A stretch of DNA of 64,000 nucleotides from Rhizophagus irregularis (taxonomy: Eukaryota > Glomeromycota > Glomeromycetes > Glomerales > Glomeraceae). Below are positions 10,752 to 39,755 of the stretch, piece by piece (positions within the stretch are counted from its first letter, which is position 1; every line of letters begins with the position of its first letter). The translations under genes were made by a program, and so were the position numbers. The DNA lies in NCBI RefSeq assembly GCF_026210795.1, contig NC_089429.1, forward strand, positions 2,046,001 through 2,110,000. Direction: 5' to 3'. The notes under the pieces are model-generated. The model made no database searches and was not told the origin of the DNA. It saw only the letters and a list, made by a program, of their open reading frames with translations.

Positions 10752-10782
10752 TTGAATTTTATTCTAACTTAGTTTAAATACG

Positions 10783-14780: not shown

Positions 14781-14824
14781 ATTATGACAAATTAAAGGAA
14801 AGATTTCGGACTTCAAATCTTAAG

Positions 14825-16280: not shown

Positions 16281-16511
16281 TCTTTGGGTTTTCGTTCTTC
16301 GGAAGCCTACCCGAACCTACCCTATAAAAAATATGCACACTGTTTATATACTATATATTCGCATCTTTGATACTGTTCGCAATTTTATATACTGCACATC
16401 AGTATTATGTATACTGTTCGCAAAATGCCAATAATAAAAAATGTAACAAAGTATACGGTTAATAGACTGTATGATACGGTATTTTAATTTCATACATTTG
16501 TAACGTATATT
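16281..16511. other. Host spacer between the two Polintons
   Basis: This is 231 bases of AT-rich DNA with no gene. It contains a dispersed host repeat (ATACTGTTCGCAAAATG near 16430 and GATACGGTATT near 16475). The same repeat also occurs to the right of element B and at the end of the window. The last five bases, ATATT (16507-16511), are one side of the target duplication of element B. Confidence 0.7.
16507..16511. repeat. Target-site duplication, left copy (ATATT)
   Basis: ATATT precedes the left TIR and recurs directly after the right TIR at 39751-39755. Polintons usually make 6-bp duplications. Counting the G at 16512 gives ATATTG on both sides. Confidence 0.65.
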
Positions 16512-17019
16512 GTCATCGGGCTGGTAGTGTAGTCACTACGTTCCTCCACCTCGGACTCACGTCCTCGCAGTACCTCCTTCCCCCATTCATGGGGGAGGGT
16601 TAACCAAGATCCGTTACTATCCGTTACTACATCTGTTACTAAAAATATACTAAAAAACAGATAAAATAAGGAAAAAGAGAGGAAAATACGATAGAATCAG
16701 AAGGGAGTAACAGATGTAACAGATGTAACAGATATTTCAGAATACTAGGAGAGGACACCCCTCAGAAAAAAGTTTTGATTTTACCCCCCCAGATCTGTTA
16801 CATTCGTTACGATCCGTTACTCTTTCAGGATTCCGTTCGTTATCTTATTGGAGGCAGTGAGATAACAAACCGAGTGAACAGGTAGGTCAATAGCCCCTAG
16901 AAGGTCTGGAAAACCACAGGAGGGTGACCAGGTAGGAGCGCGGATCTTTGGAAAAAATATATTCGGCAATTGAAGATTAGGTAACTATAAATTAGTACTC
17001 GATTTGATAGAATAAAAAA
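16512..17019 (+). repeat. Left terminal inverted repeat of element B (GTAAC type)
   Basis: This is the reverse complement of 39243-39750 with few differences, ending right at the helicase start codon. It carries three clusters of three 9-mers: ATCYGTTAC at 16609, 16619 and 16631; GTAACAGAT in perfect tandem at 16707, 16716 and 16725; ATYYGTTAC at 16793, 16802 and 16812. An outer hairpin-like GTAGTGACTAC lies about 20 bases in from the end. A C/T-G/A skewed segment and a short inverted repeat around CCCCCATTCATGGGGG (about 16580-16596) are also present. The inner end contains the promoter of the helicase gene. Confidence 0.9.
16968..16979 (+). promoter_or_regulatory. TTGAAGAT box in left TIR, helicase promoter
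   Basis: AATTGAAGATTA lies about 50 bases before the helicase ATG at 17020. Because the TIR is inverted at the other end, the terminal gene at 39242 has the same box in front of it, so both end genes share a promoter. Confidence 0.5.
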
Positions 17020-21472: not shown

Positions 21473-21565
21473 TTGCTAAGAACTGGTAGGTTTATTTTTT
21501 ACCAACATACCGTGATAGCATAATTGAATAAACCTATAGAACATGTAATCTTACAAGATACCCAA

Positions 21566-22060
21566 ATGCAAAACACCGACGGATTAGGTAGACAAGACGA
21601 CGAAAGTTTCCACACGTGGGCTAAGCGCATTCAGAATGCTGTGCAATATTATGAGACTTGTAGTAGAATAGGTTTTCATAGGCGGCTACCTTATCCAAGG
21701 TCTCGTCAAGCTGTATATGCTTATATTGTGCACATTAGGAGAATAGTATCACGACTACCAAATAGGTGGTACTGTACCTACTGTAAATCTTTTATTGATC
21801 GCGGATGGGGAGCCGACGCTTCCATGGATCAAGCGGTACGACTACATTTATATAGTTGCCCGAAGCATTTTAATTTCGACTATTATACTCATTATGCTGA
21901 AATGATCCAGAATGCCTTTAGGAGATATATAGAAAGAAGGAACAATAAAGCGGCTAGGATCATCCAGAAAGTCGCTATCCCCTGGTTATATAGACCAGGC
22001 TCTCCATTGATGCAAAAGGCCGAGCAACGCTTCTACTGCCTTGCAGTATCCCAAGTGTAA
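21566..22060 (+). CDS. Small zinc-binding protein with IQ-like helix
   Basis: A 164-residue protein starting at the first in-frame ATG (MQNTDGLG). Upstream codons are open back to a TTG, but the TTGAA sequence there resembles the promoter box rather than coding sequence. A C-x2-C pair (YCTYC) near residue 72 and a later His/Cys pair (HLYSC) about 30 residues on suggest a C2HC zinc finger. The C-terminal helix AFRRYIERRNNKAARIIQK resembles IQ motifs in basic and aromatic spacing. Not recognised as a named Polinton family. It follows PolB by 93 bases on the same strand and is followed by a T-run at 22073-22084. Confidence 0.65.
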   Translation: MQNTDGLGRQDDESFHTWAKRIQNAVQYYETCSRIGFHRRLPYPRSRQAVYAYIVHIRRIVSRLPNRWYCTYCKSFIDRGWGADASMDQAVRLHLYSCPKHFNFDYYTHYAEMIQNAFRRYIERRNNKAARIIQKVAIPWLYRPGSPLMQKAEQRFYCLAVSQV

Positions 22061-22103: not shown

Positions 22104-22116
22104 AACTGAAGATTTA
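22104..22116 (+). promoter_or_regulatory. CTGAAGAT box before the 156-aa gene
   Basis: AACTGAAGATTTA lies about 30 bases before the ATG at 22142. It matches the element's common box at all but one core position. Confidence 0.42.
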
Positions 22117-22141
22117 TATTTTTTACAAAGTACAAAGAATC

Positions 22142-22612
22142 ATGTCAACATATACCGAATTCGCAAGCATTGTTAACAGCACTGACAGCACTAGTGAGGA
22201 GGTTATTTATGAGGCATCGCGCATTCAGCCTAATGTTGTCTCTGACGAAACTGTCTCCAAGATTATCCGCGCATTAAAAGATACTATAGTAGTCGCATTA
22301 GTATCTGGATTTAGCAAAACCAGTTACCTCGTCCATGATCACGTGAAGTATATCAAGCGAATCCAAACGGCAAATTCTCCTGTATCATATGTGAAGTTCG
22401 TGGCCAGAAAACTCTTCCCAGATAATGCGGCATATACTGCTAAGATAGCAAAAATCCGCGAATCATACAAGAATAAACAAGCTCTCCTAGATAAGCTTGA
22501 GGCCCTCTTCGAATTGTATTATAATGCGACTAAGGACTCATCAACCGGTTCCCCAAAGCGAGCTATTACTAAAAACGAGGCTGAGAAAACCTTAGCAGAA
22601 CTTCTTGCATAA
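22142..22612 (+). CDS. Uncharacterised Polinton protein, 156 aa
   Basis: No family is recognised. The protein is Ser/Thr-rich at the start and then mostly helical, with a Val/Ala-rich hydrophobic stretch (TIVVALVSGF, about residues 50 to 60) that is too short and broken for a confident membrane segment. The C-terminal half is a charged helix pair (AKIAKIRESYKNKQALLDKL). It stands alone with its own upstream box and T-run (22652-22661), like its neighbours, so it is probably a real gene of the element. No copy from element A is visible for comparison. Confidence 0.55.
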   Translation: MSTYTEFASIVNSTDSTSEEVIYEASRIQPNVVSDETVSKIIRALKDTIVVALVSGFSKTSYLVHDHVKYIKRIQTANSPVSYVKFVARKLFPDNAAYTAKIAKIRESYKNKQALLDKLEALFELYYNATKDSSTGSPKRAITKNEAEKTLAELLA

Positions 22613-22698: not shown

Positions 22699-22721
22699 TA
22701 TAGTATAAGTAACATAACATC

Positions 22722-23069
22722 ATGTTGGACCGATTACCAGTAGAAATAGTCGAACGCATTGTCGCAAATATCCCGGATACTGACCTTATTGCAGCGAGTA
22801 AGGTAGATAGAGTGTGGTGGCAGGAAGTTCGTCGAGAGACATATAAGAGGTGGAAAAATTATGCCACTATGATCGGGGATGTGTACTGTGAAATCCGAGC
22901 TCTCGGAAAGCATTATATAAAGAGGGAAATTGACTGGATAACGTTTGAAGATGTAAACGACCTCTATAAAAGATGGATAAACCGCCTTACCGAGGATCAG
23001 CTTTATATTATGGAGAAAATGCTTAGGAATGGGATGGTCGATGGACCCCCCAAGAGAGGGAAACCATAG
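22722..23069 (+). CDS. F-box-like protein
   Basis: A 115-residue protein whose N-terminus, LPVEIVERIVANIPDTDLI followed by AASKVDRVWWQEV, fits the F-box pattern LPxEIxxxIxxxLxxxDLxxxxxVxxxW. F-box proteins bind Skp1 and recruit substrates to SCF ubiquitin ligases. The remaining 70 residues are helical and could be the substrate-binding part, but carry no known repeat. If the call is right, the element may steer host protein turnover, as poxviral F-box proteins do. It could instead have been picked up from the host, where such genes are numerous. It is the last gene before the LINE. Confidence 0.65.
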   Translation: MLDRLPVEIVERIVANIPDTDLIAASKVDRVWWQEVRRETYKRWKNYATMIGDVYCEIRALGKHYIKREIDWITFEDVNDLYKRWINRLTEDQLYIMEKMLRNGMVDGPPKRGKP

Positions 23070-23535: not shown

Positions 23536-23550
23536 TTGACAAGGACTGAT
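23536..23550 (+). repeat. Probable LINE target-site duplication, 5' copy
   Basis: TTGACAAGGACTGAT occurs here and at 31710-31724 directly after the LINE. The element A LINE is followed by the same string at 8162-8176. A longer but imperfect alternative starts near 23487, so the exact junction is uncertain. Confidence 0.6.
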
Positions 23551-23653
23551 AAGGACTGATACCGCTGATCTATTAACCAAAAATTTTCAGAAAGAAAATT
23601 TTATATCTTCGTACTAACAACTCTTATATTTTACCCAACTCATACCTTCTAAC

Positions 23654-25786
23654 ATGTCTAGAAACCTTGCTAGAAGAGGTGGCGGCAGCTATAACCCTAA
23701 CAGTAATAAGGCTGCTCGTCAAGAAAAGAAAAATAACAAAAAACAACTCTCTGACAACTCTGGTTCCGATAGTAATAACACTTCCCAAAAACGTTCCCGT
23801 ACTATTACAAAAGACTCCATGGATGAAGACTATGAAGATTTCGTTGCCGACGCGCTGGCTGATGGTGGTTTAGTTGGTTCAACTTCGACCGCTATTCCTC
23901 AACAAAATAATTCCCGCAGCACCGCCCAAGAAAATACTCAAGCATCTACCCCGAATAATTCTGCTGCGCCTTCTGCGCCTGGCCAAGACGCGTCCTCTGG
24001 AACTAACGCGTCAATTCATGCACCTCGAAACAAAGAAAATAACTCATCCCCTAACGCGTCCCCTAATATGGACGAGACTGATGGTACATCACCCGATCAG
24101 GCTGTTGATCCCTCCCCTACTATTACCATTAATCGTCAAGATTTCCTGGCTGCGGCTGCGCCCAACTCCGCTCCCCAAACTCTAGAGAAACTTAAAACTA
24201 ATAAGGCAATTATAGATGCCGTTAACAATTTATTTTTAGAAACTTACGAATCATATACCGGTCGGGCTCGTATGACTGGTTCAGGGGACGCTAAGCGTCT
24301 CATCATACATTTTCATACTGCGGAGGCTCGTGATTTGTGTGTTGGAAGCACACACTCCGACTTTCCGGACCTACAATTCCACCTGTACGATCCCAAACAG
24401 CTCCGGTCCGATGAAGACCTCCGTGCAATTCAAGTCACGGATATACCGTTCTTCATTACTAAACCGCAACTCCAATCCTACTTCAAGAAATTCGGCAATC
24501 TCCTTGCTCTTCATCTCTACTCAAGGAAAGGTGCTAAGATGCAACAAGCTCGCATTGTCTATGATCATGCCGATGCCATCTCCCGTTTCACAACTCAATG
24601 GGCAGTTTACTGCTTTTCCACCTGCTTACGTGTTACCTCATGTCATTACTCTTTGGATCAAAAAGCTGCTCGTAGAGCGTTCGTAGCTGTTCTCTCTGGA
24701 CTTCCCGCTAATACCAAAGATATCCATCTCGCTCCTTTGGTCAAAGAACATGGAGCAAAAGCTATTAACATTCCCCTTTCCCTCAATTCTTATAAACCCA
24801 AGCCTTGGGCTTATGTTACCTTCAACTCGCAAGAGACAATGGATGCCGCTATGGAGCAGACTATTGGTTTCCAAGGTCGTACTCTTCGATGGGGAACATC
24901 CAATGATTCGAAAGCTCTTTGTCACCGTTGTGGTAAACTCGGTTGTGCTCCTACTTCCTGTCCACTTAATCAACGCCGTGGTCGTTCACGTACACGTGAC
25001 CCTGTAGCTGCTCTTAAAGAACGCTTCAACATTGGCCAAAGGCCCGCCCAATAAAGAATGCTGCGCAATAATTCTCGTTCTCGATCTCGATCTAAATCTC
25101 GGGATCGTTCTGCCTCAGCTCATCGTTCTAATTCCAACTCCACTAGATCTAATAATAATAATTCCAATATCAATGCTAAGCCCTCCTCCTCCTCTGGCTC
25201 AACTAACTCCTCCTCAACTGCTCATGGACGTACACCTTCCAACAACCGTAAAGGCAAAGATAGATCTGTTTCCTTTTCGTCCAATGCTCGTGCTCTGCTC
25301 CCCGATCCAAATTCTTCTAGTGCCCTTGAGGCTGCTCTCAACATTCTCAATGTTTTGAAGGACCTTCAGCTAGATGTTGCTCGTGTGGAATCCCGCATCT
25401 CATCCCTTGAACTTAACAACCAACGGCTCTCTGCTATAGAAGCCCATTTAGGCATTAATCCTCCCTCTGCACCTGTCGTTATTACTGAACCTGATCGAAT
25501 GGAAGAAGACCCTCCTGAAACCACTGGCACCTTAATCCAGCATCCCAATGCTCCTTTATCTGCTGGTTCAATGAAATCCTCTTCCCCTACATCTACATCC
25601 AACAAAGCCCCACACTCTGCTTCTGCATCCACTTCTAACCCTTCCCCGCAAGACGAATTGAACTCCATTATTCAAGATCAAAAAGCGATTAAAGATACTT
25701 TACAATCGCTCACTGGTTCCATCCAAGGTTTTATTGCTTCTCTTGGTGGTTTTCCCTCCGATCGAGCTTCTGCTCCTTCGCAATAA
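23654..25786 (+). pseudogene. LINE ORF1, one nonsense codon (B)
   Basis: The same protein as the ORF1 at 102-2225, including the CHRCGKLGCAPTSC zinc motif. A TAA at 25052-25054 stands where copy A has CAA, a single C to T change. The frame then continues open from 25058 to 25786. The break lies between the zinc motif and the Arg/Ser-rich tail, so the truncated product would keep the RNA-recognition and zinc parts but lose the coiled-coil segment. Three extra codons (an acidic Tyr-Glu-Asp insertion near residue 60) distinguish it from copy A. Confidence 0.85.
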
Positions 25787-25832
25787 CTGATTTCTCACTT
25801 CCTTCTCCCGTACTTATTATCATTGTGTTCTA

Positions 25833-28800
25833 ATGACTGACAATTTTAATTATGATACATTTGTTCGCAACCCACCCAACCCCGTAGATATTTATAATTT
25901 TTCAGAACATGAATCTTTATTCACTACTTTAAATTCTTCTCCTATCCCCAATTCGTTTAATATTTCATCTTTTAATGTTAATGGTCTTCGACATAATAGC
26001 CAAGTTAAAATTGAACAAATTTCAAACTTTTTCAACCTTAAACATATTTCCTTTGGTGGTATCGTAGATACCCATTTATCCCCCAAGCAAATTCACTTTT
26101 TATCTAAACGCCTTCCTAATTATACTGTCTTTTCATCTGACATAGATAAAACTAAACAAGTTAAATCTACTGGTGGCGTTTCCCTTTTTATTGAAAAAAC
26201 CCTTGCTTCTCATGTACAAGATTTTGTTTCACATTCTTCGCGAATTTTATCTGTTGACCTTTATTTTAAAGGCAACGTTAAATTGCGCATTTTTGTTATT
26301 TATATTCCTCCTGTTTCTGATTCTAAATTACGATCAGAAACCATTGACCTTCTTTTACAATTATTAGTGCAAACTAAACAAAAAAATTTTTATCACGTCA
26401 TTTGTGGCGATTTCAATATGCATTTAGATGCCTATTATCCTATTTATTTTAACCGCCCCTCTGTTGCTTCCCAACGAACTTATCGTTTGCTACATCATCT
26501 TTTATCTCATGGATATGAAGAAACTATTCCTGTTAACGCTTCTGATTCCTTAGGCACTTTTCACCGTGACGATCAAGTTACTCGTATTGACTATGTTTGG
26601 TCTTGTCCAATGCTTAAAAGCTTTGCTCTCACCTCCTATATATTTAACGCCCAAGACACCTGCTCTTCCGATCACAATCCCATCATCACTTATTTCGATG
26701 ATTCACTCTTGTTTGCGTCTGTCAAGGTTGCTCGCGCTAAACAACTTCAACGTCGAAATCGCCGCATATTCAAATTGATTCAGTTACTGATCAACAATGG
26801 GAATTTTTCTCTGCTCATACTGACTCTTTATGCGACGTACCGCCATCAACCTTCTCAACATGGCATATTAATCAACAATGCGAATATTTACATTCACGTA
26901 TATTGAAAGCTGCTAATGCTTCCCTTCCATCTGTTACAGTTGGTAATCAGCATACACCCACGATGCCCAAGGATTTGGAAGCCTTAACTCAACATTATCG
27001 TTTCCTCAGCCGTCTTTTGCATTCGATACGTTTATTGCGAAAATATCCTTCTACTTATTATAATAGATATGAACGTACTTGGTCCACCCATTTCATTAGA
27101 CTTCAAAATATTCTACATCTTTATAAGAAGGCTATTCCTTCTCCCCCTACTTTGCCTGTTTCTTTATCCATTTGTAGGCAAGACGATTTTAAATTTCTAT
27201 TAGACTCTTTAAAGATTATTTCTTCCGCCCTTTATGGCCTTCTTCTCCTTAAAGAAAAAGATTTTCAAGATTCTTCCATTCATGCTAAACTGGATGATAG
27301 GGATAACAATTTTGAAACTGACATCTCCTCATTCATTGATTCTGCTCTCTCAAGAACTCGACGTCATATTACCTTGGATCGTGTGTTTATTGACCACCCT
27401 ACACATCCAAAGTTATTGACAGACCCACATGATATTGACGATGCCGTTATCGACCACTTCCAGAATTCCGTTCCTATGAAATCATCACCCCCAGAAAACA
27501 TTTCAGCTCTCCCTGAACGATGGTCTTCTGCTTATCACCCTATGGACAATTTAGATCCCTCTATTTATAATTTTTTATTGGATCCTCCTACTCTTGAAGA
27601 ATGGTTGTCTACGGTCTCTTCTATGCCTAATGACAAAGCTCCTGGTCCTTCTATGATTACTTATGAGATGCTTAAGCATCTGGGTTCAAACGCTTCTGCT
27701 TTGGTTTTAATCCTTGTCCAATCATGTCTTCGCACCGCAGATATTCCTGATTTATGGCGTCAGGCTATGGTCTTTCCTATCCCTAAACCTCACGAATGGA
27801 AATGTCAACTAAAGAATACAAGACCTATTACTCTGCTTGAAGTAATTTGGTCAAACTTTTTTATAATCGTCTCGCTTCCATTTTGGCTTCAAATGAAGTT
27901 CTCAAAGGAGGTAACTTCGCCGGTCTCCCAGGTGGTTCTTGTCGCGACCCTATTGTCGTTCTTGAATCTATTATCCATGATGCTCATGTCAACAAATCAC
28001 CGCTTTGGATCCTTTCGCAAGATATTTCGAAGGCTTTCGACTCAGTTGATCTCAAGATGTTGCGTTTCGCTCTAGAACGCATTAAACTTCCTGCTTCTGC
28101 TATCAAGTTTATTTTATCCCTCTTCATGAAACGCTCTAATCGCATTTTTACTGCTCATGGAACTACTCCTTCTTACCGTGTTCGCATTGGTATAGATCAA
28201 GGCGAAGTTATCTCTCCTTTACTCTGGGTCATATATATAGACCCTTTATTGACTGTTCTCAAAAATGAAATGATGGATCCATATACGCTTCATGCTCCCT
28301 CTTTAATTAATCCTTTGGCTCAGGCTAATTCAGGTGGATTACGAATCAACAATTTGGTCTTCATGGATGACTCTACTCTAATTTCGTCATCCAAATCTGG
28401 AATGGAATCAATGCTCTCTATTACGGAAGAATTTTATCAAATCAATAATACTTCCGCTAATCACAACAAATATGTTTCAATTACTAATTCGTTGCCTCCC
28501 ACTTCAGTTTTATCACCTTCTCCAGTCGTGTTTGACTTGCAATTATCCGGATTGAACAAAGTTCCTTCCATTTCTATTGTGCCTATCTCCATGAATAGCT
28601 CTTTCCGCTTCCTGGGCGTGTGGTTCAATGTCGCTGGTTCTCGTGATTTTGTCGAAGCAAGTTGCTAGAGAATGTAACTCCTTCGCCACTACCGTACGCC
28701 CTGCCAAATTATCTGCTAAACAAATAGTTTATTTACACAACACCGTCCTTATCCCGAAATTGGAATATCGCATGCAAGTCACTCACCTCTCCGAATCTGA

Positions 28801-31441
28801 ATGTGCCTCGGCAACCAGCAGTATCCGTTCCTTGGTTAAACACAAGGCCAACTTTTCACGAGTACTCCCTGATTCTATTTTGTTTTTGTCTCAAGGCTTG
28901 GGATTGATTAATTTATTTTTTCATCAATCACAAACACATTTAACTAATTTATTTTTGTTAGCTAATTCTTCTTCTTCTTTTATGAAAAATTTATTTTTAT
29001 ATAGATTACGTTTAATTCAATTTTCTTTTTTAATTCCTATTTCCCTATTGTTAGTTAAAGATTGGACTATATGGTCTAAACTTTTTGCTTTTAAACAGGA
29101 TTATATCGCTTGCACTATTGCTCTCCTGACCACCACTCCCTTCATGTTGTTGCGTTCACAACTTTCAACTTTGCCTGACCTTACTATGTCTAATGGTCAT
29201 ACACCTTTATATGATGTTATGACTCCAAAAATTTTTATTTCTTACTTCCGACGTCTTAGAAGTTTGCAACTTTATTACCTATCACAATTTATTACGCCTC
29301 AAGGAACCCATATGATTACTTGGAACGTTTATCTATCCAATTTATCGAGCAGGAAAGGTCATCGTGTCCTCCCACACAAATGGTTCAATGACATTCACCA
29401 ATGCGTCACTGTTCCAGGTTCCAACTCTCTCCTTTTGGATCGGTTCTCTTCTGACGCTATTCCTTCCAATATCGACTTGGTTCCCGCCTTTGGTTCCTCT
29501 CGAAAATCCATGAAATGGATCGTAACTTTGGATGATGATGGCTCTCCTCTTTTTGGAAAACAGCTCAGTAAACAGCAATATTCCTGCAAGATTGTCCATT
29601 GGACTTCTGATTGTGTGACTCGACCTAATGATGTTATCACGCTCACTCCTTATCCTGGTTGTTCTAAACATGTACCGGTTACCCATACTAAAAGTAATCT
29701 AACAGATGTTACTCCTTTATGTATCATCCCAAAACTCTCTCCTCTTCGATCTTTACTTCTCCCAACAACGCAGGAGCGTATTAGACATGACACCACCACT
29801 ATCGCTTCTCCTTTTACTTGGGCGGACCTTGACGAGACTGTAAGATCCTATTATGGTCGTTTGGACATTCAACCTAATTTTTCACAAGAAGATGTGGTTA
29901 CTCTCCCCTCTCCTTCTCCTCCTCCCTCTTTGGGTTCGGCTGCCCCTCTTGCTTTTGCTGCCTCACCGTTAGCGACTCCTCCTGATAACCATTATTGTTT
30001 TTATACCGATGGTTCTTTAATTAACCTTGGCACTCCTAATGTTTCTATGGGTTGGTCTTGGGTTCAAGTCCTCGATGGCGCTGGCTTTTTCCAATCTATC
30101 GCTGCTCACGCTCATGGAATTATTCACAATTGGCCTTCTTCTACAAGGGCTGAAATTGCCGCTATACATGCTGCTCTTACAGTTACTCCTCCCTTTTCAA
30201 CGGTCACTATTCATACTGACTCTCAATCTGCCATAGATGGTCTTCGTCTATGTGCTACGTTTTCTTATTCCAATAGTAGGCTTTATTACAAGACCACCAA
30301 TTTTGAACTTTGGGCTATTATTGAACATCTCATTTCATCCAAATCTTTGTCCGTCACAGCCGTTAAAGTGAAAGGTCACTCTGGTAATTTCTACAATGAC
30401 TACGCGGACTCATTAGCCAACTCAGCGCATACTTCCTCTTCAGCAATTCTTCTTTCTGATCTGGATCAAGTATCTCCTCACGATTTCGTATTAAAATATG
30501 ATGACATTTTATGCGAATCTAACCCACGACGCCTATTCAAGCAATATTCACAAATGCTATGGATGCATAGTCTAACGCGTTTATCGCGATTTAACTTTAC
30601 CATTGCTTTATCTTCCATCTCAGACTTCGTAATCGATTGGGATCTTACCTGGTTCACGTTAAATGCTGAACCTCAGCATGATGCTTCTTTTACTTGTGCT
30701 CATGCTTCCTCTCATCGAACCTTCAAATTCAAACTCTTTTTGGAAGATTTACCTACCTTGGAACATCTTAAAAGAATCCGCCCGGACTTGTATATCGACA
30801 TCTTATTATGTCGTTCATGCCTCGACTCCAAGGAAGATTTCATGCACTTATTTATGTGCAAATGTAGACGAATCGCTATGGAACAGATTCTCCTCTCCTA
30901 CCAACATCACTTTATCAACAAACTTCAAGAAGCTGGTGATCTCGTTAAGAAAGATCCCTCTTTAATTATTAACAAATTTAAATCTCTTTCTTGTTGGTCC
31001 TTTTCCTCTTCAAATTGGACTTCATATAGTCTTGTCCGTGGCTGTCTTCCGAAATCCTTTGTCGCATTTTTTGAAGAACTTTCTATTCCACGAAATTCTG
31101 CGATGAAGGTTATCTCTGCTATCCACAATCACTTTATCCAAAAGATCAGAAAACGAATTTGGCTACCGCGCTCCTATGATAAATCTAAATGGGAAGACGC
31201 GATGAATATTACTCATAAACTCAAACTTTCTCGGCCTTCAAATTTGCCAAAGTCCACGTACTTACCTTTCTCAACTTTACCTCCTCCGACCCTTTCCGAC
31301 GCCGCACGTGACTCCGACGTTGATTATTTAAAGAACTCGATGAAATATGGTTTGCCTTGGTTTAATCACTATTCAGGTTTTATGGGTCGTCTAACGGTGC
31401 AACTTACTTACAGCTGTAGCAGGGTGGTGTGTCGATTTTAA
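25833..31441 (+). pseudogene. LINE ORF2 with three frameshifting indels (B)
   Basis: The same EN-RT-RNase H polyprotein as in copy A. Relative to A, one base is lost near 26773 (end of the endonuclease region), ten bases near 27848 (start of the RT core) and two bases near 28653 (after the RT core). The open pieces are 25833-26906, 26903-28075, 27847-28668 and 28628-31441. The FMDD active site is intact in the third piece. The fourth piece keeps the complete RNase H end (VKVKGHSGNFYNDYADSLAN) that copy A has lost, and the C-terminal zinc motif CRSCLDSKEDFMHLFMC. Each copy thus preserves what the other has broken. Confidence 0.87.
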
Positions 31442-31746
31442 CAATGGGCGCATTGTTCGTTGGTTTGTTTGCATAGTTGCTTCTTCTTAGGTTGGAATAT
31501 ATCTAGGCGGGGGATCAGGATAGTTTTAGTGTTATGCGATTTTTTCCTTTTCGAATTAATTTTATAGCTTTATTACTGTTTTGGAGACTATATAGTTTTG
31601 TTTTTAGTTAATTTTATTTTTCTTTTTTGTACTTTGAAAATTTTATTTTATTTTTGTAAGTTCGTTAAATAAATTTAATAAAGATAAAGGCTACTATGCC
31701 ATGTTTGCCTTGACAAGGACTGATGACGATGTCACTTGGTTATTGT

Positions 31747-31760: not shown

Positions 31761-31793
31761 AATTAGGTATGTAGACACGTACAGAAAAAAGAC

Positions 31794-32378
31794 ATGTCAT
31801 ACCCTTATATAACTAATCCTATAACCGGACATCCAATCCGTGTTGGTGGAGATACCTTTAATCGAATAGTTATGGAATCCCATGATTATATCGATGGAAG
31901 GCTTGTCCGTAGACAAACCGCACCGCCTCCACCCCAGGAACAACCTGTATATTTAAATACAGATACAGGACGCTATATTCAACACGGTACTAGAACGTAT
32001 CATAGACTGGTTGAGAGTGACTACGAGGTAGTCGAGGACTACTACCTTGTCCATTATGAAGAAGAGGCACTTATAGAGGAAATCATCAATGAAACACGCT
32101 ATAATGAGGAAAATCTTGATGGCCAGCGGTTAACTTTCAATGATATACAACAAATCAGGGCCGCTATTCAGGCTGACCAAGATGAATATGATGATTTTAT
32201 CTTACAGCAAGATACGACTAACGGGACACCTTCCTCCGGTCCTTCTGGTCATCCACGAACTTTGGAGGACCATGCCCCGAGACTTGCAGAGCTTAATATC
32301 GAGTTGTGTAGGGAATGTCTCATGCCTGTAAGCCCAAGTGACTTAACGGACAAGTTATGCAAGAACTGCGCTTCCTAA
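31794..32378 (+). CDS. Two-cysteine-adaptor-like protein with C-terminal zinc ribbon (B)
   Basis: A 194-residue copy of the gene at 8246, with nine residue differences. Both NxxTGRxI-type segments are present, though the first reads TGHPI, so its Arg is lost here. Both C-terminal Cys pairs (CREC, CKNC) are kept, which supports a structural zinc. The LINE separates it from the left-half genes, but its own upstream box is intact, so the insertion probably does not silence it. Downstream, a short direct repeat of GGTCCTCC (about 32394-32415) is longer than in element A. Confidence 0.7.
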   Translation: MSYPYITNPITGHPIRVGGDTFNRIVMESHDYIDGRLVRRQTAPPPPQEQPVYLNTDTGRYIQHGTRTYHRLVESDYEVVEDYYLVHYEEEALIEEIINETRYNEENLDGQRLTFNDIQQIRAAIQADQDEYDDFILQQDTTNGTPSSGPSGHPRTLEDHAPRLAELNIELCRECLMPVSPSDLTDKLCKNCAS

Positions 32379-32546
32379 TGGTTAGTCCTCCGGTCCTCCG
32401 GTCCTCCGGTCTTCCGGTCTTTCCAACGGTTGATCCCTTAATGCCAGTTATTTTTTTTTCTACAAATGACAGGTATTTAAAGATAACAATATATAAAAAA
32501 GATTGTGAAGGATACTAAGTGAGCGAATAATCAAAGAAAGATAGCC

Positions 32547-33107
32547 ATGTCAACATCAATCGTAATAAACCAATGTCAGAACTGTGGAGTATTCTCTGCA
32601 AAAGCGGCATATAGAGGATTATCCAGCGTGTTGTATAGACAGATTATAAAGAAGATTGGCGACGAGAGTGAACCTTTACAAGCCTTGGGACTTGCCAGGG
32701 ATAAGTTGGTCCAGATTATTCATCGGGCAAGTAATGCGGATTTTACACAATTATTCATACAAAGACTGGATATGAAAATTATGGACGGAGATTCATACGA
32801 GGATACTAGAAAGTGGCTTCTTGAACAGCTTATAGCCATTGGATGTGACAGTGGGGAAATTGCCTTATATCAGTTCTTACAGAATACATACCCGGATGGT
32901 ATTGACGAACCCTTTACTACATTCTATGAGAACTATGTAAGTCATGTAAGAAATCCGATGACTAAGAACTTTGCTTCTCGAGCCTTAGGAGCTATTGGGT
33001 TAAAAGCTAGGATGCTACGGATTGACTTCGAAGGACGTAAAAAAAGCGCCATGATTCTTAGGGCTTCTGAGGAAGAACTTCGCGAGATTCTTACAAAATA
33101 CTATTGA
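32547..33107 (+). CDS. Uncharacterised Polinton protein, 186 aa (B)
   Basis: The copy of the gene at 8984 with five residue differences, none in the CQNC pair. The C-terminal ASRALGAIGLKARMLRIDF segment is unchanged. The family is not recognised. The last 17 bases overlap the remnant 3' end of the ATPase gene on the other strand. Confidence 0.65.
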   Translation: MSTSIVINQCQNCGVFSAKAAYRGLSSVLYRQIIKKIGDESEPLQALGLARDKLVQIIHRASNADFTQLFIQRLDMKIMDGDSYEDTRKWLLEQLIAIGCDSGEIALYQFLQNTYPDGIDEPFTTFYENYVSHVRNPMTKNFASRALGAIGLKARMLRIDFEGRKKSAMILRASEEELREILTKYY

Positions 33108-34314
33108 TCCCTACTCGTAATGCTCGACGGTCCATATGACCCTTAGAAAAGATCTGTAAAAGGACCCCGATGCCTTCTATTATTTTTTTATTATCCAAAG
33201 GGTGACTAGACTTCAGGACTTCATATCGGGAGAATAACTCCTTTACGGTCTCAGGTTTTGGAATTTCAGTCTTTGTGGTCCTATCCCGTACTTTTGCTAA
33301 GAAGTTTTGGAAGTCTGATCCCAGGGTCTTACCAGATAGTCCGTAGGCTTCCCGAAAGATGTACTTAATCCAGGTATCTGCGTTCTTAGCTATAACACCG
33401 GATACGAGGAGGTGTTTTCTCTCTTTAGGTGATGGATATTCCCGAGCAAACTCGATTAGCTGGGAGGACTTTTTTGCTTCAGCTACGGCTTTCTGGCCAT
33501 AGGGACTAAACTTCGATCAAACTGGGTTCAAACTTGGATCGAACGGGGATCGAACTGGGTTCAAACTTGGATCGAACGGGGATTGAACTGAGATCGAACT
33601 AGGATCGAACGGGGATTGATCAGTGATTGAACTGAGACTAGTATCCCATCTAACCCGAATAGATAATGGATCGCTCTTGGATCTTCTAAGATCAAATACT
33701 ATAAATTCGCGTTGTAGAGTAAGGTCATCGATTACTGGAGCTAGTGACTCCGATTCTTCTGTATACTGGCAGATGATCCTCTTAGTATCGGTCAAACTTC
33801 CGTGACCTCCATGTAGGGAAATATAATTCACATTTTCACGAATAGCCTTGGGAATGGTAAAGAATCTTTGGGCCACATAGATACATGAAATATTTTTGTG
33901 TCGTCCGTGTGTAAAAAATCCAGTGATGAGATCCTGGGTTTTTTTAGGCGCATCCATCAAATCCTCGAAGATTACCACAGTAGCCTGGGTGGAGTTGAAG
34001 TCCTTAACATTTGGAATCTCACTATGGGATACTGCGGTAAACGGAATTTCTTCTTCTTTGAAAAAATCACGTACGACTGCCCACTTCGGTTCATCGAGGT
34101 ATCTGCCAACTAGAATTACCGCATCACATAATATGTACCTTTCGCCATCCTCCTTTGCCTTTTTGTCTCCCATTAACAAATTAATGATCATAGTTGTCTT
34201 ACCCGAGTCAGAACTTCCTGCTACGGCAAGACGGAAAGGCCATGATGGGGCAAACTCATTACCCTGTCTCGAGTCGGTCGTGTACTCATCCAAATTGTAT
34301 ACATAAAGATCCAT
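33091..34314 (-). pseudogene. A32/FtsK-like packaging ATPase, nonsense-broken (B)
   Basis: Walker A (GSSDSGKTT) and Walker B (VVIFEDLMD) are intact and the first 265 residues are open. A TGA at 33517-33519 stands where copy A has CGA, again one C to T change at a CpG. It falls within the 11-residue repeat region, so the ATPase core would still be made without the C-terminal 140 residues. The repeat block differs from copy A in sequence (SPFDPSSISVQ then two SPFDPSLNPV units), which shows that the minisatellite is evolving quickly. The downstream frame to 33091 is otherwise preserved. Confidence 0.85.
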
Positions 34315-34345
34315 TTGAATTTTATTCTAACTTAGTTTAAATACG

Positions 34346-35050
34346 ATGTCGACACCAATTGCAATTTATACTCCTTCAGAGCCTACTGGACCGCCTCCTA
34401 GGGATTTGCGTGATATGAATAATATACCATTAGTTGCGGTAATTAAGGATCTAACAGATTTTTTAACTGTCAGTGATCGCATGGTTGTTAATCGAGATGT
34501 ACAAAATGCAAACCATCGTCTTAAACATGCTCTTAATTTATTAATTCATCGCTGTAGAGAAACATACGAAGAACGCGATATATTAAAAGCAGAACGCGAT
34601 CGATCTCGAAAAGAACGCGATGAATTACAAGACGAACTCGAGGTTCAAACAGGTTTGTTAGGTCTTACACAAGATGAGCTAAATATCGTACAAGATACTA
34701 TTACTGGTTTAGAAGCTAATTTGGCTGAATTGGAACGTGAGTTTGGTGGTATGCGGATGACTAATCGTCGTCTTCAGCAGCAATATAATCTTATGAGAGG
34801 AGAACGTAATAGAGCTATAGGTGAACGTAATAGAGCTATAGGCGAGCGTGATGTGGCACGAAATCGGCTTGTATATGCCAATAATCGGGTTCTTTTTGGA
34901 ATTCGGACATTGGGACGTCTTAGGAATCGACTTTTCCAACAAATAGCCGCTCTGCGTATCCAAGTACAATGGTTTCGGATTAGACAATTGAACCCTCCTC
35001 CACCTCCTCTCAACCATCCACAAAATACGATATGGCTGCCGTTGGTATAG
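34346..35050 (+). CDS. Coiled-coil protein preceding Gag (B)
   Basis: 234 residues, nearly identical to the copy at 10783, including the tandem GERNRAI heptads and the Pro-rich tail. It starts 31 bases from the ATPase start on the other strand and overlaps the Gag start by 19 bases, as in element A. The conserved overlap in both copies argues that the arrangement matters for expression. Confidence 0.7.
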   Translation: MSTPIAIYTPSEPTGPPPRDLRDMNNIPLVAVIKDLTDFLTVSDRMVVNRDVQNANHRLKHALNLLIHRCRETYEERDILKAERDRSRKERDELQDELEVQTGLLGLTQDELNIVQDTITGLEANLAELEREFGGMRMTNRRLQQQYNLMRGERNRAIGERNRAIGERDVARNRLVYANNRVLFGIRTLGRLRNRLFQQIAALRIQVQWFRIRQLNPPPPPLNHPQNTIWLPLV

Positions 35051-36528
35051 CTGCCCCCATATTTCATGGTCGGGAAGATGAAGATCTTAATCTTTTTATT
35101 GATAACTTTTTAGGGTATATTAATACCGTTGGTATTGATCCATTGGACGATGCCGGTGCGCCTCCTGGTCGGGTGAGAGCGATGGGGGTTCTTCGTAGCT
35201 GTATGAGAGATGAAGCGGCGAGGTGGTTTGATGCAGAACTTACTGGAAAAAATTGGGAACTCTCGAATATTCGGTTAGTGGCTGCTGCAAATGGTGGAGC
35301 CGGTGCCACTCGCCGAGCATTCAGAGCTTTGGCTGTTCCTGAGGTTGCTAATGGATTACATGTTGGTACTTACTTACCCGGGTCTGATGCTGATGTATAT
35401 TCAAGGATTGTAGGTAATGCGGCGAGAACCGTTGGAGACGCATTTTTCCCGTCACGCGCTGATATCGTTAGAACGAATTTTAAAGTTGAAGAGCAGTGGA
35501 GGCGTGCGGGCGGACGTCCTACTCATCAACCCGTTAATGGGTTGGGAAATCATGGAGGTCCATTCAATGCTGCTGCCCAGAATCAACCGATAGTCTTACA
35601 GGGGATTCTCCTGGATCAAGCATTTATGCATATGCGCACAAATTTTCCAACTGTCGTGGAAGAAAGACTTCAGATACGATTTAGTAACCTTTATCAGGAA
35701 CAAGGCGAACCTGTTCGATCTTACTATAAGCGAGTTGAGAGGGCTGGGGATATTGTAGGATATAATCGAATTATGGTTACTGACCAGTTCTATAGAGGAC
35801 TTTTGCCGGAAAACGTTATTGAAGCTTCCAGAATCGGGGCGGCACCTCTTAATATATTAATCGATAGATTGAGTGATCTTGAGCGACGAAAGGGCGAAAT
35901 GTTCTATGGATTACAAAGGCGCCAGGGTATTGAAAAGGCTAAAAAAGAGGAATTGGCTGGCTATACTCATCCCGTGACTCCACACGAAGGTGCTGTAATG
36001 CAAAGGTCGACAGACGTTATTACTCAAGAAAAATTACAAGAATTGCTTAAGACACAAGCCGAGGAACTTACCAAGAATTTCCAGGCGCAATTTAAACAAT
36101 TACAAGCATCTAAGCCAGTTCGTAAACCACCGGTCTATAGACAACAGATTAAACCTGTTCGACCAAAACCACAGAGACGCGTTGTTCAGGATCCTCAGGA
36201 TCCCGATTGGGATGATGGTTATATAGATCATGATGTTGGTGATGACCCTGATGCTCCTGAATGGACTAGTGAAGATGATCAACATGTTATTGATCTTATT
36301 ATGGGATATGAGACGTCTAAAAGATTTCCAAAGCGACTTCAGAAGGCTAAAGATAGACGCGATGATTTGGAATTAGCCCGAGCAATGAGAAACCTCGATC
36401 TTAATGATGATGCTATGGATATTGATACTAATACCACGAGTTTTGATGACTTGAAAATTGTTCCCGATGAGGAAGGTGGTTTTCGGATTTGTGCGGTTCG
36501 AAGTACAAAAAAAAGTAAACTCGGATAA
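35032..36528 (+). CDS. Retrotransposon-type Gag (capsid-like) protein (B)
   Basis: A 498-residue copy of the Gag at 11469. Most differences from A are single substitutions outside the helical core. The A-run near the end has eight A, so the Gag frame reads three codons past the copy A stop and ends ...KKSKLG. The protease frame is then +1 (or -2) relative to Gag rather than -1, so the frameshift signal seen in A is not in register here. Either this copy is impaired for Gag-Pro production or the run length is unstable. Confidence 0.78.
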   Translation: MAAVGIAAPIFHGREDEDLNLFIDNFLGYINTVGIDPLDDAGAPPGRVRAMGVLRSCMRDEAARWFDAELTGKNWELSNIRLVAAANGGAGATRRAFRALAVPEVANGLHVGTYLPGSDADVYSRIVGNAARTVGDAFFPSRADIVRTNFKVEEQWRRAGGRPTHQPVNGLGNHGGPFNAAAQNQPIVLQGILLDQAFMHMRTNFPTVVEERLQIRFSNLYQEQGEPVRSYYKRVERAGDIVGYNRIMVTDQFYRGLLPENVIEASRIGAAPLNILIDRLSDLERRKGEMFYGLQRRQGIEKAKKEELAGYTHPVTPHEGAVMQRSTDVITQEKLQELLKTQAEELTKNFQAQFKQLQASKPVRKPPVYRQQIKPVRPKPQRRVVQDPQDPDWDDGYIDHDVGDDPDAPEWTSEDDQHVIDLIMGYETSKRFPKRLQKAKDRRDDLELARAMRNLDLNDDAMDIDTNTTSFDDLKIVPDEEGGFRICAVRSTKKSKLG

Positions 36529-37237
36529 GGGTGTAAGTATCTCGAAACTTCTTAAATCTGTTCCAAAAAAATCAGTTAAAATGACTCCTATTAAGATTCC
36601 TGTGAAGGTTACTAGTAGTAAGCCCACACTTATAAAAGCCGTCACCAAACATGATTCATTAAGTTTATTAAGGTCTGCAGATTTTAGGAAATTACTCCGC
36701 GAGATTCTTCGGGAAGAATTAAAGTCTGCTCATAAAAGTACGGAGATTCCGGAAGACCTAGTTGAGGAAAAACAAGAAGAGGATATCAGGGAAGATGACC
36801 CGATGGATATTGACATAGTTCGTTTGGAGAATACTAAAGATCTTTTAGCGCTGGATGGGGAGGTCAATGGGATAGCAATTCAGTGTTTAGCAGACACTTG
36901 TGCTAACGCGTCTTTTATTCAGAGAGAAGCCGCTGAGGAATTAGGGTTGGATATCGACAAGAGTATTACACATAACATATCCGGCGCTCCGGGTTCTGGT
37001 AGGACATTCGGCATGGTAAAAGGTGTGTCAATCAAACTAACCCCTGATTGTGTAATCACTGAGAATCTTGCGGTTTTAAGCGATTACAAGCATAGGGAGA
37101 TTGGATTGAGCCGGACGTGTCTGAAACGTTACAATTATGATGTCCATGAATCACGTGAACATATCGCCTTTACTTGTAATGAGAAGAATGTTTTTATCCC
37201 GATAGTTTCTGACGTGAATCGAGGAGACAAAAAATAG
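36458..37237 (+). CDS. Retropepsin-like aspartic protease (B), uninterrupted
   Basis: 259 residues open through the active site. The linker is basic, then acidic (DDPMDIDIV). The core begins at GEVNGIAIQCLADTC, with the catalytic Asp in LADTCANASFI and Cys where Gly is usual. GAPGSGRTFG is a plausible flap. Retropepsins act as dimers to cut Gag; one Asp per chain, as here, fits that. The domain overlaps the Gag 3' end by 71 bases in another frame, so it probably has no start of its own and depends on frameshifting. Confidence 0.72.
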   Translation: MFPMRKVVFGFVRFEVQKKVNSDKGVSISKLLKSVPKKSVKMTPIKIPVKVTSSKPTLIKAVTKHDSLSLLRSADFRKLLREILREELKSAHKSTEIPEDLVEEKQEEDIREDDPMDIDIVRLENTKDLLALDGEVNGIAIQCLADTCANASFIQREAAEELGLDIDKSITHNISGAPGSGRTFGMVKGVSIKLTPDCVITENLAVLSDYKHREIGLSRTCLKRYNYDVHESREHIAFTCNEKNVFIPIVSDVNRGDKK

Positions 37238-37251
37238 GAAATATTCATTTT

Positions 37252-38343
37252 TTATTCCCAAAACTTGCGGATTAAGGCGGGGACATCCTCCTCCAACCGG
37301 TCAGCGGGTTCCCAAGTGGCTTCGGTATCTGGGTATCGTTCCCACTTGACTAGATACTGGTCTTGACCCTTCCTAATGCGATGCCGGAGTATCCGCTCAG
37401 GTACAAATCTTTCAGGTTGCCCTCTTATCACGGAGTCAGGTGGGGGATATTCATTTTCTGGAACAATTTGCAACTCTTTTCGGGTGTACGCACATCTGGA
37501 TACACCTAGTCGCCCGTGTGGTCCATCAAGAAGATACGTAGGAGGTTGTTCGGGTGAGAGTATCATTTTTTTGATGACACGGATATTGGGATTCCATCTT
37601 ATGTCTCCTGTACGAAATTTTCCATGGAGTTTATTACCGAGTACTGAGATAGGTTCATCTAACTTTACTCAGACACGCGTTCCTTCAGAGAGAAGTTCCG
37701 TCTTTTTTGACACTTTGGGTGACCCAGTCGGAATATCTGGAGAATTTCTTTGCCAGATTTCATCTATTTTATTAACTACATCATGGAAATCTTCTGACCA
37801 TTCCACGGATGTCACCCCGGTCTTCAACTCCTGTGCCACCATTCGTTTTAGGAGAGGCTCCTGGATCGCTTGGATAGCTCGTTCAGCGTATGATTGCTGT
37901 TTGTGTCTTCCCGGCTCTCCAAACCTCATCATCACCCCTAGGCTGTTCAGGAAAAAATCACGTACCTGATCATTGGTGAATTCTGATCCGGAGTCTGTCT
38001 CCATTCGATGTGTTGGTGGCTTAATGCGATTTCTTCTGTAGATTTTAACAAATCCATTGAGAACCCTATTTGCAGTCTTATCCTTTAGGGGTTCTGCGTC
38101 AACTCGTTTACCCGCGACTTCTACCACTACGAGAAAATAGTGGAATCCTTTGGGGTCGACTGGCATCTCTGCGAGATCTGCCTGATGCGTCGCATTTGGT
38201 TTCCATACAACTACTCGTGGACGCTCTGATGACTTTTCCTTTAGGGGCTTTTTGTATAGGTTGTAGTGCTCCTCACCTTTTAGAATTCGTGCTGGTACTC
38301 CGGAGAGATTGTAGTATTTGTAGTAATTCTCTAAATGCGACAT
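37252..38343 (-). pseudogene. Polinton integrase (rve core plus chromodomain), nonsense-broken (B)
   Basis: The ATG at 38343 starts MSHLENYYKYYNLSG. DDE residues appear in HQADLAEMP, ETDSGSEFTN and SYAERAI, all intact. An in-frame TGA near 37669 follows the core, where copy A has CGA, a C to T change. The same frame then stays open through an SH3-like linker to the chromodomain (YLVKWERYPDTEATWEP) at the C-terminus. A truncated core without chromodomain could in principle be made. The start is 44 bases from the DUF5679-like start on the other strand; the 3' end converges on the protease gene. Confidence 0.86.
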
Positions 38344-38387
38344 ATTATGACAAATTAAAGGAAAGATTTCGGACTTCAAATCTTAAA

Positions 38388-38708
38388 ATGACACGATTTT
38401 ACTGCCTAAAGTGTAAGAAGGAAACCGAGACTGCTAGTGAAATACAAGATATGACCACAAATGGGCGTTACCGGCTGCATGGTGATTGCACAGTTTGTGG
38501 TATGCATAAGAATACTTTTACTGGGATAGACTGGGTTATCAAAAAGAAAACTAAGGAGAAGAAAAAAGAAATCGCGGCTAAAAGACATCAGACGGCGTAC
38601 AATCGGCAATGCAAAAAACTCGGGCAGAAAATCTTAGATTCTGATGACACGTGTAAGCAGTGTATTGATAAATGCCTTAAGGAGGCAAAAAAGAGGAAGA
38701 CGGATTAG
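38388..38708 (+). CDS. DUF5679-like small zinc protein (B), intact
   Basis: 106 residues. Cys pairs are CLKC (residues 6 to 9) and CTVC (near 42), with MTTNGRYRLHGDC between, as in DUF5679 proteins of large DNA viruses and Polintons. A third pair (CKQC) and further Cys follow a Lys-rich middle, so a second zinc site is possible at the C-terminus. This is the intact version of the frameshifted copy in element A. Confidence 0.72.
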   Translation: MTRFYCLKCKKETETASEIQDMTTNGRYRLHGDCTVCGMHKNTFTGIDWVIKKKTKEKKKEIAAKRHQTAYNRQCKKLGQKILDSDDTCKQCIDKCLKEAKKRKTD

Positions 38709-38717
38709 TACCGCCTT

Positions 38718-39242
38718 CTAAAAGTATTCCTCATCATCTGAGTCATCGAGAGATACCTCTCCATTATCTGATTCATCATCCGAGTCGTCAGGAGTGCGAC
38801 CTTCCTTAAGCAATTGGATGTTGTACGTTATTTGAGTCCATTTCTCCCAGTCGGACTCTTGCATTATAAAGCTGCATCTGAGGAGAGCTTTTTCTACTGC
38901 CACCATTCCTGCGAACCTAGTGTATTTTTTCTGATCGGCTTCAATGAAATTGTCAATGGCCTCCCTGTAGTAGTCTACCGCCCTGTCGTATTCCTCCTTG
39001 GCTTCTTTATATCGCTTCCAGAGTACTCGTTCAGCTTCGGCACTCCAGATTGGGTTGACTTCTAGAAGATGTGGTCCAAAATTGCTACTTGGAATACATT
39101 CCAGGATATGGCATACAAGTTTGGGAATTACTGATACTGCGTGCGGGTTTTGGTGGCTTTTTAGGATCTCCCTATTGATACCCGTAAGATCGGGGACTGT
39201 GTAGCTAAAGATTCCTGCCAACTTTTCTACGGTATATGTCAT
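38718..39242 (-). CDS. Terminal acidic helical protein, type-1 N-terminus (B)
   Basis: 174 residues. The C-terminal half (from LWKRYKEAKEEY onward) matches the element A protein and ends in a Ser-Asp-Asp-Glu tail. The N-terminal 77 or so residues (MTYTVEKLAGIFSYTVPDL...) are unrelated to those in A. The ATG is the last codon before the right TIR, so its promoter is the TIR itself and is the same as that of the helicase at the other end. Not recognised. Confidence 0.65.
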   Translation of the reverse strand: MTYTVEKLAGIFSYTVPDLTGINREILKSHQNPHAVSVIPKLVCHILECIPSSNFGPHLLEVNPIWSAEAERVLWKRYKEAKEEYDRAVDYYREAIDNFIEADQKKYTRFAGMVAVEKALLRCSFIMQESDWEKWTQITYNIQLLKEGRTPDDSDDESDNGEVSLDDSDDEEYF

Positions 39243-39750
39243 TTTTTCGTTCTATTAAATCGAGTACTAATTTATAGTTACCTAATCTTCAATTGCCGAA
39301 TGTATTTTTTCCAAAGATCCGCGCTCCTACCTGGTCACCCTCCTGTGGTTTTCCAGACCTTCTAGGGGCTATTGACCTACCTGTTCACTCGGTTTGTTAT
39401 CTCACTGCCTCCAATAAGATAATGAACGGAATCCTGAAAGAGTAACGGATCGTAACGAATGTAACAGATCTGGGGGGGTAAAATCAAAACTTTTTTCTGA
39501 GGGGTGTCCTCTCCTAGTATTCTGAAATATCTGTTACATCTGTTACATCTATTACTCCCTTCTGATTCTATCGTATTTTCCTCTCTTTTTCCTTATTTTA
39601 TCTGTTTTTTAGTATATTTTTAGTAACAGATGTAGTAACGGATAGTAACGGATCTTGGTTAACCCTCCCCCATGAATGGGGGAAGGAGGTACTGCGAGGA
39701 CGTGAGTCCGAGGTGGAGGAACGTAGTGACTACACTACCAGCCCGACGAC
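39243..39750 (-). repeat. Right terminal inverted repeat of element B (GTAAC type)
   Basis: The inverted partner of 16512-17019. The 9-mer clusters are GTAACGGAT, GTAACGAAT and GTAACAGAT at 39442, 39452 and 39461; ATCTGTTAC, ATCTGTTAC and ATCTATTAC at 39529, 39538 and 39547; GTAACAGAT, GTAACGGAT and GTAACGGAT at 39623, 39635 and 39645. The terminus CCAGCCCGACGAC ends at 39750. Confidence 0.9.
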
Positions 39751-39755
39751 ATATT
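39751..39755. repeat. Target-site duplication, right copy (ATATT)
   Basis: ATATT (ATATTG with the next base) directly follows the right TIR and matches 16507-16511. Confidence 0.65.

Follow-up and report, generated by a model that had tools for sequence, protein, structure and literature searches.

In a 64,000-nucleotide stretch of the Rhizophagus irregularis genome (contig NC_089429.1, positions 2,046,001 to 2,110,000; the window hereafter, in whose coordinates positions are given), we found a Polinton that carries, beside its A32-type packaging ATPase, a module composed of a coiled coil, a Gag and a retropepsin-type aspartic protease. The module likely builds and matures a particle for the DNA of the element, a reading to which we assign a probability of roughly 0.6. 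The first-pass annotation of the window had raised the idea that Gag replaced the jelly-roll capsid, and Gag in place of a jelly-roll shell is the best-supported reading, given the predicted capsid fold, the lack of any jelly roll or long terminal repeat (LTR) seen and the linkage of Gag to the ATPase in 30 of 30 loci. This reading draws on gene content and order, on the terminal inverted repeats (TIRs) and target duplication, on the predicted fold and the ATPase linkage, on purifying selection and on the presence of a related module in a second kind of element; from these we infer that the Gag shell forms and holds DNA.

Architecture of the element

The window, which lies in a genome of 146.7 Mb and 32 contigs, contains two copies of the element. 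Copy 2 spans positions 16511-39751 (~23.2 kb) and is bounded by TIRs of 512 nt each, complementary at 99%, and by the target duplication ATATT (16507-16511/39751-39755), or six bases given a one-base ambiguity. The element proper is accordingly 16512-39750. Two further copies with both ends read carry, by eye, the duplications ATAGG and TGACA, bringing the copies with a 5-6-bp duplication to three of the three with both ends read. From the left, copy 2 encodes a helicase, a family B DNA polymerase (PolB) and three small open reading frames (ORFs), followed by a long interspersed nuclear element (LINE), two small ORFs, the ATPase (minus strand), the coiled coil, Gag, the protease, the integrase (minus), a DUF5679 ORF and a last small ORF (minus) (Table 1). 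Pfam matches and the reading of the ends thus bear out the annotated TIR- and duplication-bounded element with PolB, helicase, rve-chromodomain integrase and A32-like ATPase; the SF3 label of the helicase, taken from the first-pass annotation, is presumptive. Gene order is the same in copy 1, and the claim that both copies keep the module in the same place holds for this order, whereas the protease frame of the left copy is interrupted (137 versus 260 amino acids [aa]).

The coiled coil-Gag-protease module

The predicted model of Gag matches capsid C-terminal domains of retroviruses, PEG10 and Arc in all 50 structure-search rows listed, and some Gag relatives exceed the Pfam cut-off for Retrotrans_gag; the Gag ORF is thus predicted to fold as a retroviral capsid. 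Sequence searches with the window Gag itself gave no Pfam match at 1e-3 and only chance matches with phmmer against PDB sequences. With profile A2, the PDB matches were retropepsins of the Ddi1 type, reached by way of the protease portion of the profile (best 3.9e-6), and included no capsid. A Foldseek search of BFVD gave no informative match, its top row being a fragment of HIV Gag at E 0.096. The protease matches gag-asp_proteas (2.7e-6) as well as Asp_protease_2, each above the Pfam cut-off. In the public gene models P0001, P0011 and P0014, coiled coil, Gag and protease form a single protein of ~810-870 aa, and coiled coil and Gag share a single open frame at locus L039 of the second element kind described below. 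The 120 listed of 185 Gag relatives all carry the name Rhizophagus irregularis. The protease match, the Gag structure prediction and the Gag relatives together substantiate the annotated Gag/retropepsin-like module inside the element.

Across the genome, the ATPase has at least 145 matches (143 of 397 candidates scored), and coiled coil and Gag lie beside it in the same orientation in 30 of 30 ATPase-centred loci (the best-scoring ones, all of the window's own kind), with just 64 Gag residues aligned in one of them (L018). Such an ATPase is found within 16 kb of 61 and within 25 kb of 65 of the 71 Polinton PolB loci (71 scored of 259 candidates), compared with a chance expectation of 2.3% at 16 kb under uniform density. 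Related elements devoid of Gag and protease were not seen: all 30 own-kind loci carry coiled coil and Gag, and the distant kind has a related module.

Comparison of other copies with the window copy yielded ratios of nonsynonymous to synonymous substitution rates (dN/dS), all based on few substitutions between copies with a shared history, of 0.15-0.44 for the capsid part of Gag (6/7), 0.22-0.39 for the protease (7/7), 0.17-0.41 for the coiled coil (7/7) and 0.06-0.29 for the ATPase (6/7). Against subfamily B (L048), the values are 0.06 for the ATPase, 0.16 for the protease and 0.36 for the Gag capsid part, the last with dS of 1.4. The DUF5679 ORF of L002 gave 1.01 from five changes. Codons containing stops or gaps were skipped, and partial rows were dropped (o194 of L002 and L048; ATPase of L008; coiled coil of L048; Gag capsid part of L002; Gag tail of L048; intN of L007; DUF5679 of L004 and L006). 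Judging from these codon comparisons, the module is under purifying selection, which is apparent for the Gag capsid part, protease and coiled coil, as well as for the neighbouring ATPase. In 200-base blocks, DNA identity to L048 is 78-91% over 33001-34400, 86-90% over 36001-36400 and 82-92% over 36601-38600, with 64% at the Gag-protease junction (36401-36600), and falls to 40-62% across most of 34401-36000, which holds the coiled coil and the capsid part of Gag (a single block reaches 76%). This pattern could reflect either a recombination swap of the coiled coil-capsid block or fast divergence, as shell proteins often show.

Search for a jelly-roll capsid, an adenain-type protease and LTRs

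Pfam scans of the element (three overlapping sets of 10, 9 and 10 whole or partial ORFs) returned no match to jelly-roll capsid families and, in any ORF scanned, none to an adenain/Ulp1-type cysteine protease, in agreement with the annotated lack of a candidate cysteine protease. Considering unspliced frames outside the LINE, all stop-to-stop ORFs of at least 100 aa overlap a listed gene on either strand, and the only frames longer than 270 aa in copy 2 are those of helicase, PolB and Gag. For such unspliced frames, this is consistent with the annotated lack of an ORF, other than Gag, long enough for a double jelly-roll capsid. The annotated lack of a candidate penton was examined by folding one of the seven small ORFs, that of 194 aa (the other six are the F-box-like ORF and those of 178, 168, 203, 106 and 177 aa); its model (predicted local distance difference test score, 87) consists of helices and a winged-helix-like end rather than a jelly roll. 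A Gag_p24_C match of the 194-aa ORF (~0.05) was discarded as chance once the protein had been folded. Thus, neither the Pfam scans nor the models of Gag and the 194-aa protein contain a jelly-roll fold. A search of the whole genome with the jelly-roll profile PF21738 found nothing, but the control was also silent in every genome, so this result does not establish that the genome lacks such a capsid.

No LTR-like direct repeats of at least 40 nt flank the module within 32400-39200, where the sole direct-repeat family of this length consists of the 11-bp tandem units at the end of the ATPase gene. The only Pfam match to a reverse transcriptase (RT) in the element sits in the LINE. Comparison of eight copies (L001-L008, L001 being the window copy) revealed that three of them (L005, L006 and L007) are free of the LINE, with window position 23550 joined straight to 31710, whereas the other five contain LINE sequence; 15 bases, TTGACAAGGACTGAT, are present at each end of the insertion. 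The LINE is a later, separate insertion into the Polinton. The LINE-free copies retain the coiled coil-Gag-protease module, which is therefore independent of the LINE, and no ORF of at least 60 aa crosses the empty site of L005, so the LINE displaced no capsid gene there. On these two grounds, we rejected the LINE as the source of the module or the displacer of a capsid gene.

A second kind of element and a third Gag group

A related module accompanies a distant kind of ATPase. At L039, L041 and L042, ATPases 36-42% identical to that of the window are located near a Gag that is 28-38% identical over the aligned parts; at L040, tblastn gave no capsid part, only the coiled coil, a zinc knuckle (by eye) and the protease. 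Protease matches are present in L040-L042; that of the L039 element lies in L051. An rve integrase is recognizable in L042 (Pfam, 1.7e-8), with similar frames in L039-L041 by eye; the integrases at L042:3327-4988 and L040:4071-4715 continue at the C-terminus into a long stretch similar, by eye, to a small endonuclease domain. Gag lies ~3-4 kb from the ATPase and a DNA polymerase ~4-6 kb from Gag (PF00136, 2.8e-44, in L051; an exonuclease part plus PF00136 in L052). The best PDB match of this polymerase is 8ywg (576 bits), a 1206-aa DNA polymerase, presumably the African swine fever virus enzyme. Comparison of the pieces retrieved from these elements revealed no TIR. Of two 6-kb pieces, L049 includes a coiled coil, integrase and ATPase and L050 only the ATPase and one end of an integrase; neither piece yielded a Gag, which, given the ~3-4 kb spacing, may sit outside them.

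DNA polymerases of R. irregularis have been placed in or near Asfarviridae, according to the available portions of two papers (PMC5294986; PMC10640383). Asfarvirus-type polymerase genes at L051:3935-5998 and L052:3-3455 are linked to a packaging ATPase, an integrase and Gag-protease. Genome-wide, 79 matches to this polymerase collapse into 37 loci, of which 24 have a distant-kind ATPase and 15 a Gag (47 second-kind or third-group positions) within 20 kb, the uniform-density expectations being 1.6% and 1.3%, respectively. Given the linkage of polymerase loci to ATPase, integrase and Gag, the dispersed polB genes of asfarvirus type may for the most part represent a mobile element with an integrase of its own rather than separate infections.

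The second-kind Gag query gave 116 matches at 102 loci, 69 of which have an ATPase within 10 kb among the ATPase matches listed. A third Gag group (L053 and 28 further loci), 36-41% identical to L039, is found away from any detected ATPase. In the 3.5 kb of L053 that were read, a zinc knuckle and a D-T-G protease occupy the same frame as Gag and are followed by small ORFs, one of which has an end motif resembling, by eye, the 203-aa ORF of the window; no RT was recognized in the 2.1 kb past the Gag-protease frame. Relatives of the second-kind Gag (59 proteins) are recorded under the names R. irregularis, R. clarus, R. diaphanus, Funneliformis geosporum, Glomus cerebriforme, Dentiscutata erythropus, Gigaspora margarita, G. 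rosea and Cetraspora pellucida, all presumably Glomeromycotina. Neither the ATPase nor PolB retrieved a relative from IMG/VR.

Alternative explanations and a possible mechanism

Several observations call for caution about a Gag particle. Such a particle is predicted from genes, and in the window's kind the protease triad reads D-T-C instead of D-T-G (DTCANAS is present in 102 and D-T/S-G-A in 0 of the 120 listed proteins), which makes protease activity uncertain for this kind; the second-kind and third-group triads are D-S-G, D-P-G or D-T-G. In copy 2, stops interrupt both the ATPase (at 269 aa) and the integrase (between rve and chromo). Furthermore, 33 of the 102 Gag loci, namely 4 of the 15 of the second kind and the separate group of 29, have no ATPase within 10 kb among the matches listed, some of which may have been missed. 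The first two points favour the possibility that a captured Gag-protease serves another step of a naked transposon, such as chromatin tethering, a replication compartment or Arc-like RNA transfer. However, a packaging ATPase has no evident use for a naked transposon, yet it is strongly constrained (dN/dS of 0.06 between subfamilies) and adjoins the module; moreover, nine Polintons without capsid genes had lost the ATPase and protease as well, in the part of the source available (PMC4028283), and such concerted loss is not seen here. We consider this possibility rather improbable. With a strongly constrained ATPase next to Gag-protease, the simplest account is a Gag shell into which the ATPase would feed DNA.

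Alternatively, the element could be a satellite whose ATPase packs DNA into a jelly-roll shell supplied by another virus or by a capsid gene too divergent to be recognized. Polinton ATPases usually accompany double jelly-roll capsids, as stated in the portions of the literature at hand (PMC4028283, PMC11071308), and the silent control leaves room for such a gene in the genome, but tBLASTn and hidden Markov model (HMM) searches reported no major capsid protein (MCP) in five R. irregularis strains (PMC10640383, partial text), and a satellite would leave the conserved Gag-protease without a role, so we regard this scenario as unlikely. We consider it very unlikely that the module represents an LTR retrotransposon, whether nested or degenerate, or a host gene carried along within a single family: Gag and retropepsin do belong to LTR retrotransposons, and the 29 Gag loci away from a detected ATPase fit this origin, but no LTR-like repeats lie within 32400-39200 and no RT match outside the LINE, the place of the module is fixed in 30 of 30 inspected copies, it has a counterpart in the second element kind, and no RT was recognized in the 2.1 kb after Gag-protease in L053, the sole piece of the third group read. 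Finally, chimeric assembly or chance nesting might underlie the sharing of the module with the second kind, of which just six places were read, each partly, with polymerase sequence in two; we find this scarcely credible, as the ATPase is linked to 24 of 37 polymerase loci, spread over many contigs, and as this Gag is present in public proteins from Rhizophagus, Funneliformis, Glomus, Gigaspora and others.

If Gag indeed forms the shell, coiled coil, Gag and protease would be made as a single polyprotein, as joined in public gene models, and assembly would rely on the coiled coil together with the C-terminal domain of the capsid. Gag would then be trimmed by the aspartic protease, standing in for the adenain-type protease, and the linear DNA would be brought into or onto the shell by the ATPase. 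Upon delivery, the rve-chromodomain integrase would insert the DNA, producing the 5-6-bp duplication. Because a related module accompanies two kinds of DNA polymerase, it is probably an exchangeable morphogenesis cassette (Gag, protease, ATPase and integrase). Tentatively, and at somewhat under even odds, arbuscular mycorrhizal fungi might harbour a novel class of DNA viruses, or of transposons resembling viruses, in which an A32-type motor would load the double-stranded DNA (dsDNA) genome into a shell derived from Gag and trimmed by the retropepsin; the cassette would have been fitted to both Polinton PolB and asfarvirus-type PolB, and the jelly roll would have been fully displaced in this fungal lineage.

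Other features of the element and the window

The remaining genes are listed in Table 1. The ATPase frame is at least 400 aa long in 47 of the first 59 ATPase matches listed. The tail of the gene contains 11-bp tandem repeats (GATCGAACT-like; window 33482-33677 and 9919-10114), within which the stop of copy 2 falls. F-box-like ORFs occur at two sites, namely, window 22713-23069 (under the Pfam cut-off) and L053:1627-2160 (by eye). Copy 1 ends at ~16280, ~230 bp ahead of the start of copy 2 (window 16001-16280 and 16511), making the two elements near-tandem. Satellite arrays of ~82 bp occupy window 44498-45700, 52600-53759 and 61653-62473, with inverted units between and within arrays.

Table 1. 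Features of the two Polinton copies, in window coordinates
Feature	Position	Strand	Basis and remarks
Left TIR, copy 2	16511..17022	+	Sequence comparison; target duplication ATATT at 16507-16511
Primase/helicase ORF, 840 aa	17011..19533	+	Pfam DUF5906 2.2e-17; PDB primase match 5.8e-6
Family B DNA polymerase, 624 aa	19598..21472	+	Pfam DNA_pol_B_2 1.2e-6
178-aa ORF	21524..22060	+	No family in Pfam
168-aa ORF	22106..22612	+	No family in Pfam
F-box-like ORF	22713..23069	+	Pfam 0.0038, under cut-off
LINE (RRM, endonuclease, RT, RNase H), approximate bounds	23551..31709	+	Pfam and copy comparison; outside the capsid module
203-aa ORF	31767..32378	+	Two NPxTG-like repeats by eye; 2C_adapt-like under cut-off
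194-aa ORF	32523..33107	+	Predicted model helical, winged-helix-like C-terminus
ATPase continuation, in frame past the stop	33091..33516	-	Single frame of ~411 aa in many copies
A32-type packaging ATPase, copy 2 stops at 269 aa	33517..34326	-	Pfam Pox_A32 4.4e-11
Coiled-coil ORF	34331..35050	+	Fused to Gag in public gene models
Gag	34984..36528	+	Predicted structure and relatives; capsid domain ~residues 1-286 of 35029-36525, then charged tail
Retropepsin-type aspartic protease	36455..37237	+	Pfam Asp_protease_2 4.8e-8; triad D-T-C
Integrase chromodomain part, parted from core by a stop in copy 2	37252..37668	-	Pfam chromo 2.3e-18
rve integrase core	37669..38382	-	Pfam rve 3.4e-9
DUF5679 ORF	38388..38708	+	Pfam; zinc-ribbon-like by eye
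177-aa ORF	38718..39251	-	No family above Pfam cut-off
Right TIR, copy 2	39240..39751	-	Sequence comparison; target duplication at 39751-39755
Copy 1 ATPase, 411 aa, open	9531..10763	-	ORF comparison
Copy 1 coiled-coil ORF	10768..11484	+	ORF comparison
Copy 1 Gag, 511 aa, open	11421..12953	+	ORF comparison
Copy 1 protease frame, interrupted (137 aa versus 260)	12908..13318	+	ORF comparison
Copy 1 integrase pieces	13693..14819	-	ORF comparison

Comparison with known systems

The element resembles Polintons/Mavericks (Polintoviricetes) in its TIRs, 5-6-bp duplication, PolB, rve integrase, primase/helicase and A32/FtsK-type ATPase, but differs from them in carrying a Gag and an aspartic protease, with no jelly-roll major or minor capsid protein or Ulp1/adenain protease found. 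A double jelly-roll major capsid and an adenain/Ulp1-type protease are widespread in Polintons, but not all of them have these genes. A Polinton of Glomus intraradices, in which no MCP was detected, has been described from the same fungus and very likely represents the same family; the accessible text makes no mention of Gag or an aspartic protease that we could find (PMC7805220). No title or abstract opening describing Gag in a Polinton was found in the literature searched, where coverage is thin for subscription journals and excludes bioRxiv preprints. The asfarvirus-like sequences of R. irregularis are similar in that polB is present on multiple chromosomes and no MCP was found; by contrast, that paper, in its available part, reports no A32 and takes the scattered polB as possible repeated or widespread infection (PMC10640383), whereas here an A32-type ATPase lies within 20 kb at 24/37 polB loci and Gag at 15/37. 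If the shell is Gag, the missing MCP in the Polintons and asfarvirus-like sequences of R. irregularis would be explained.

Some of the deepest splits among viruses follow the type of capsid: jelly-roll shells accompany packaging ATPases, and Gag shells accompany reverse transcription. A Gag shell, a DNA polymerase and a packaging ATPase in one element would, if true, cross this divide, and would suggest that a cassette of structural genes can pass from one replication module to another. Whether Gag forms particles that contain DNA is directly testable. Ty3/Gypsy-type LTR retrotransposons (Metaviridae) encode Gag, CCHC, retropepsin, an rve-chromodomain integrase and RT between LTRs; the element shares with them the Gag capsid fold, the CCHC in distant relatives, the retropepsin and the integrase, but it lacks LTRs and an RT of its own and has PolB and a packaging ATPase instead. 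The predicted capsid C-terminal domain fold is also that of Arc and PEG10, which, however, are host genes without ATPase or polymerase. Bidnaviridae offer a precedent for the joining of a Polinton-derived polymerase to an unrelated capsid, as described in the part of the source available (PMC11071308), although the outcome there is a parvovirus-derived single-stranded DNA virus, whereas here it is Gag that is combined with an integrating dsDNA element.

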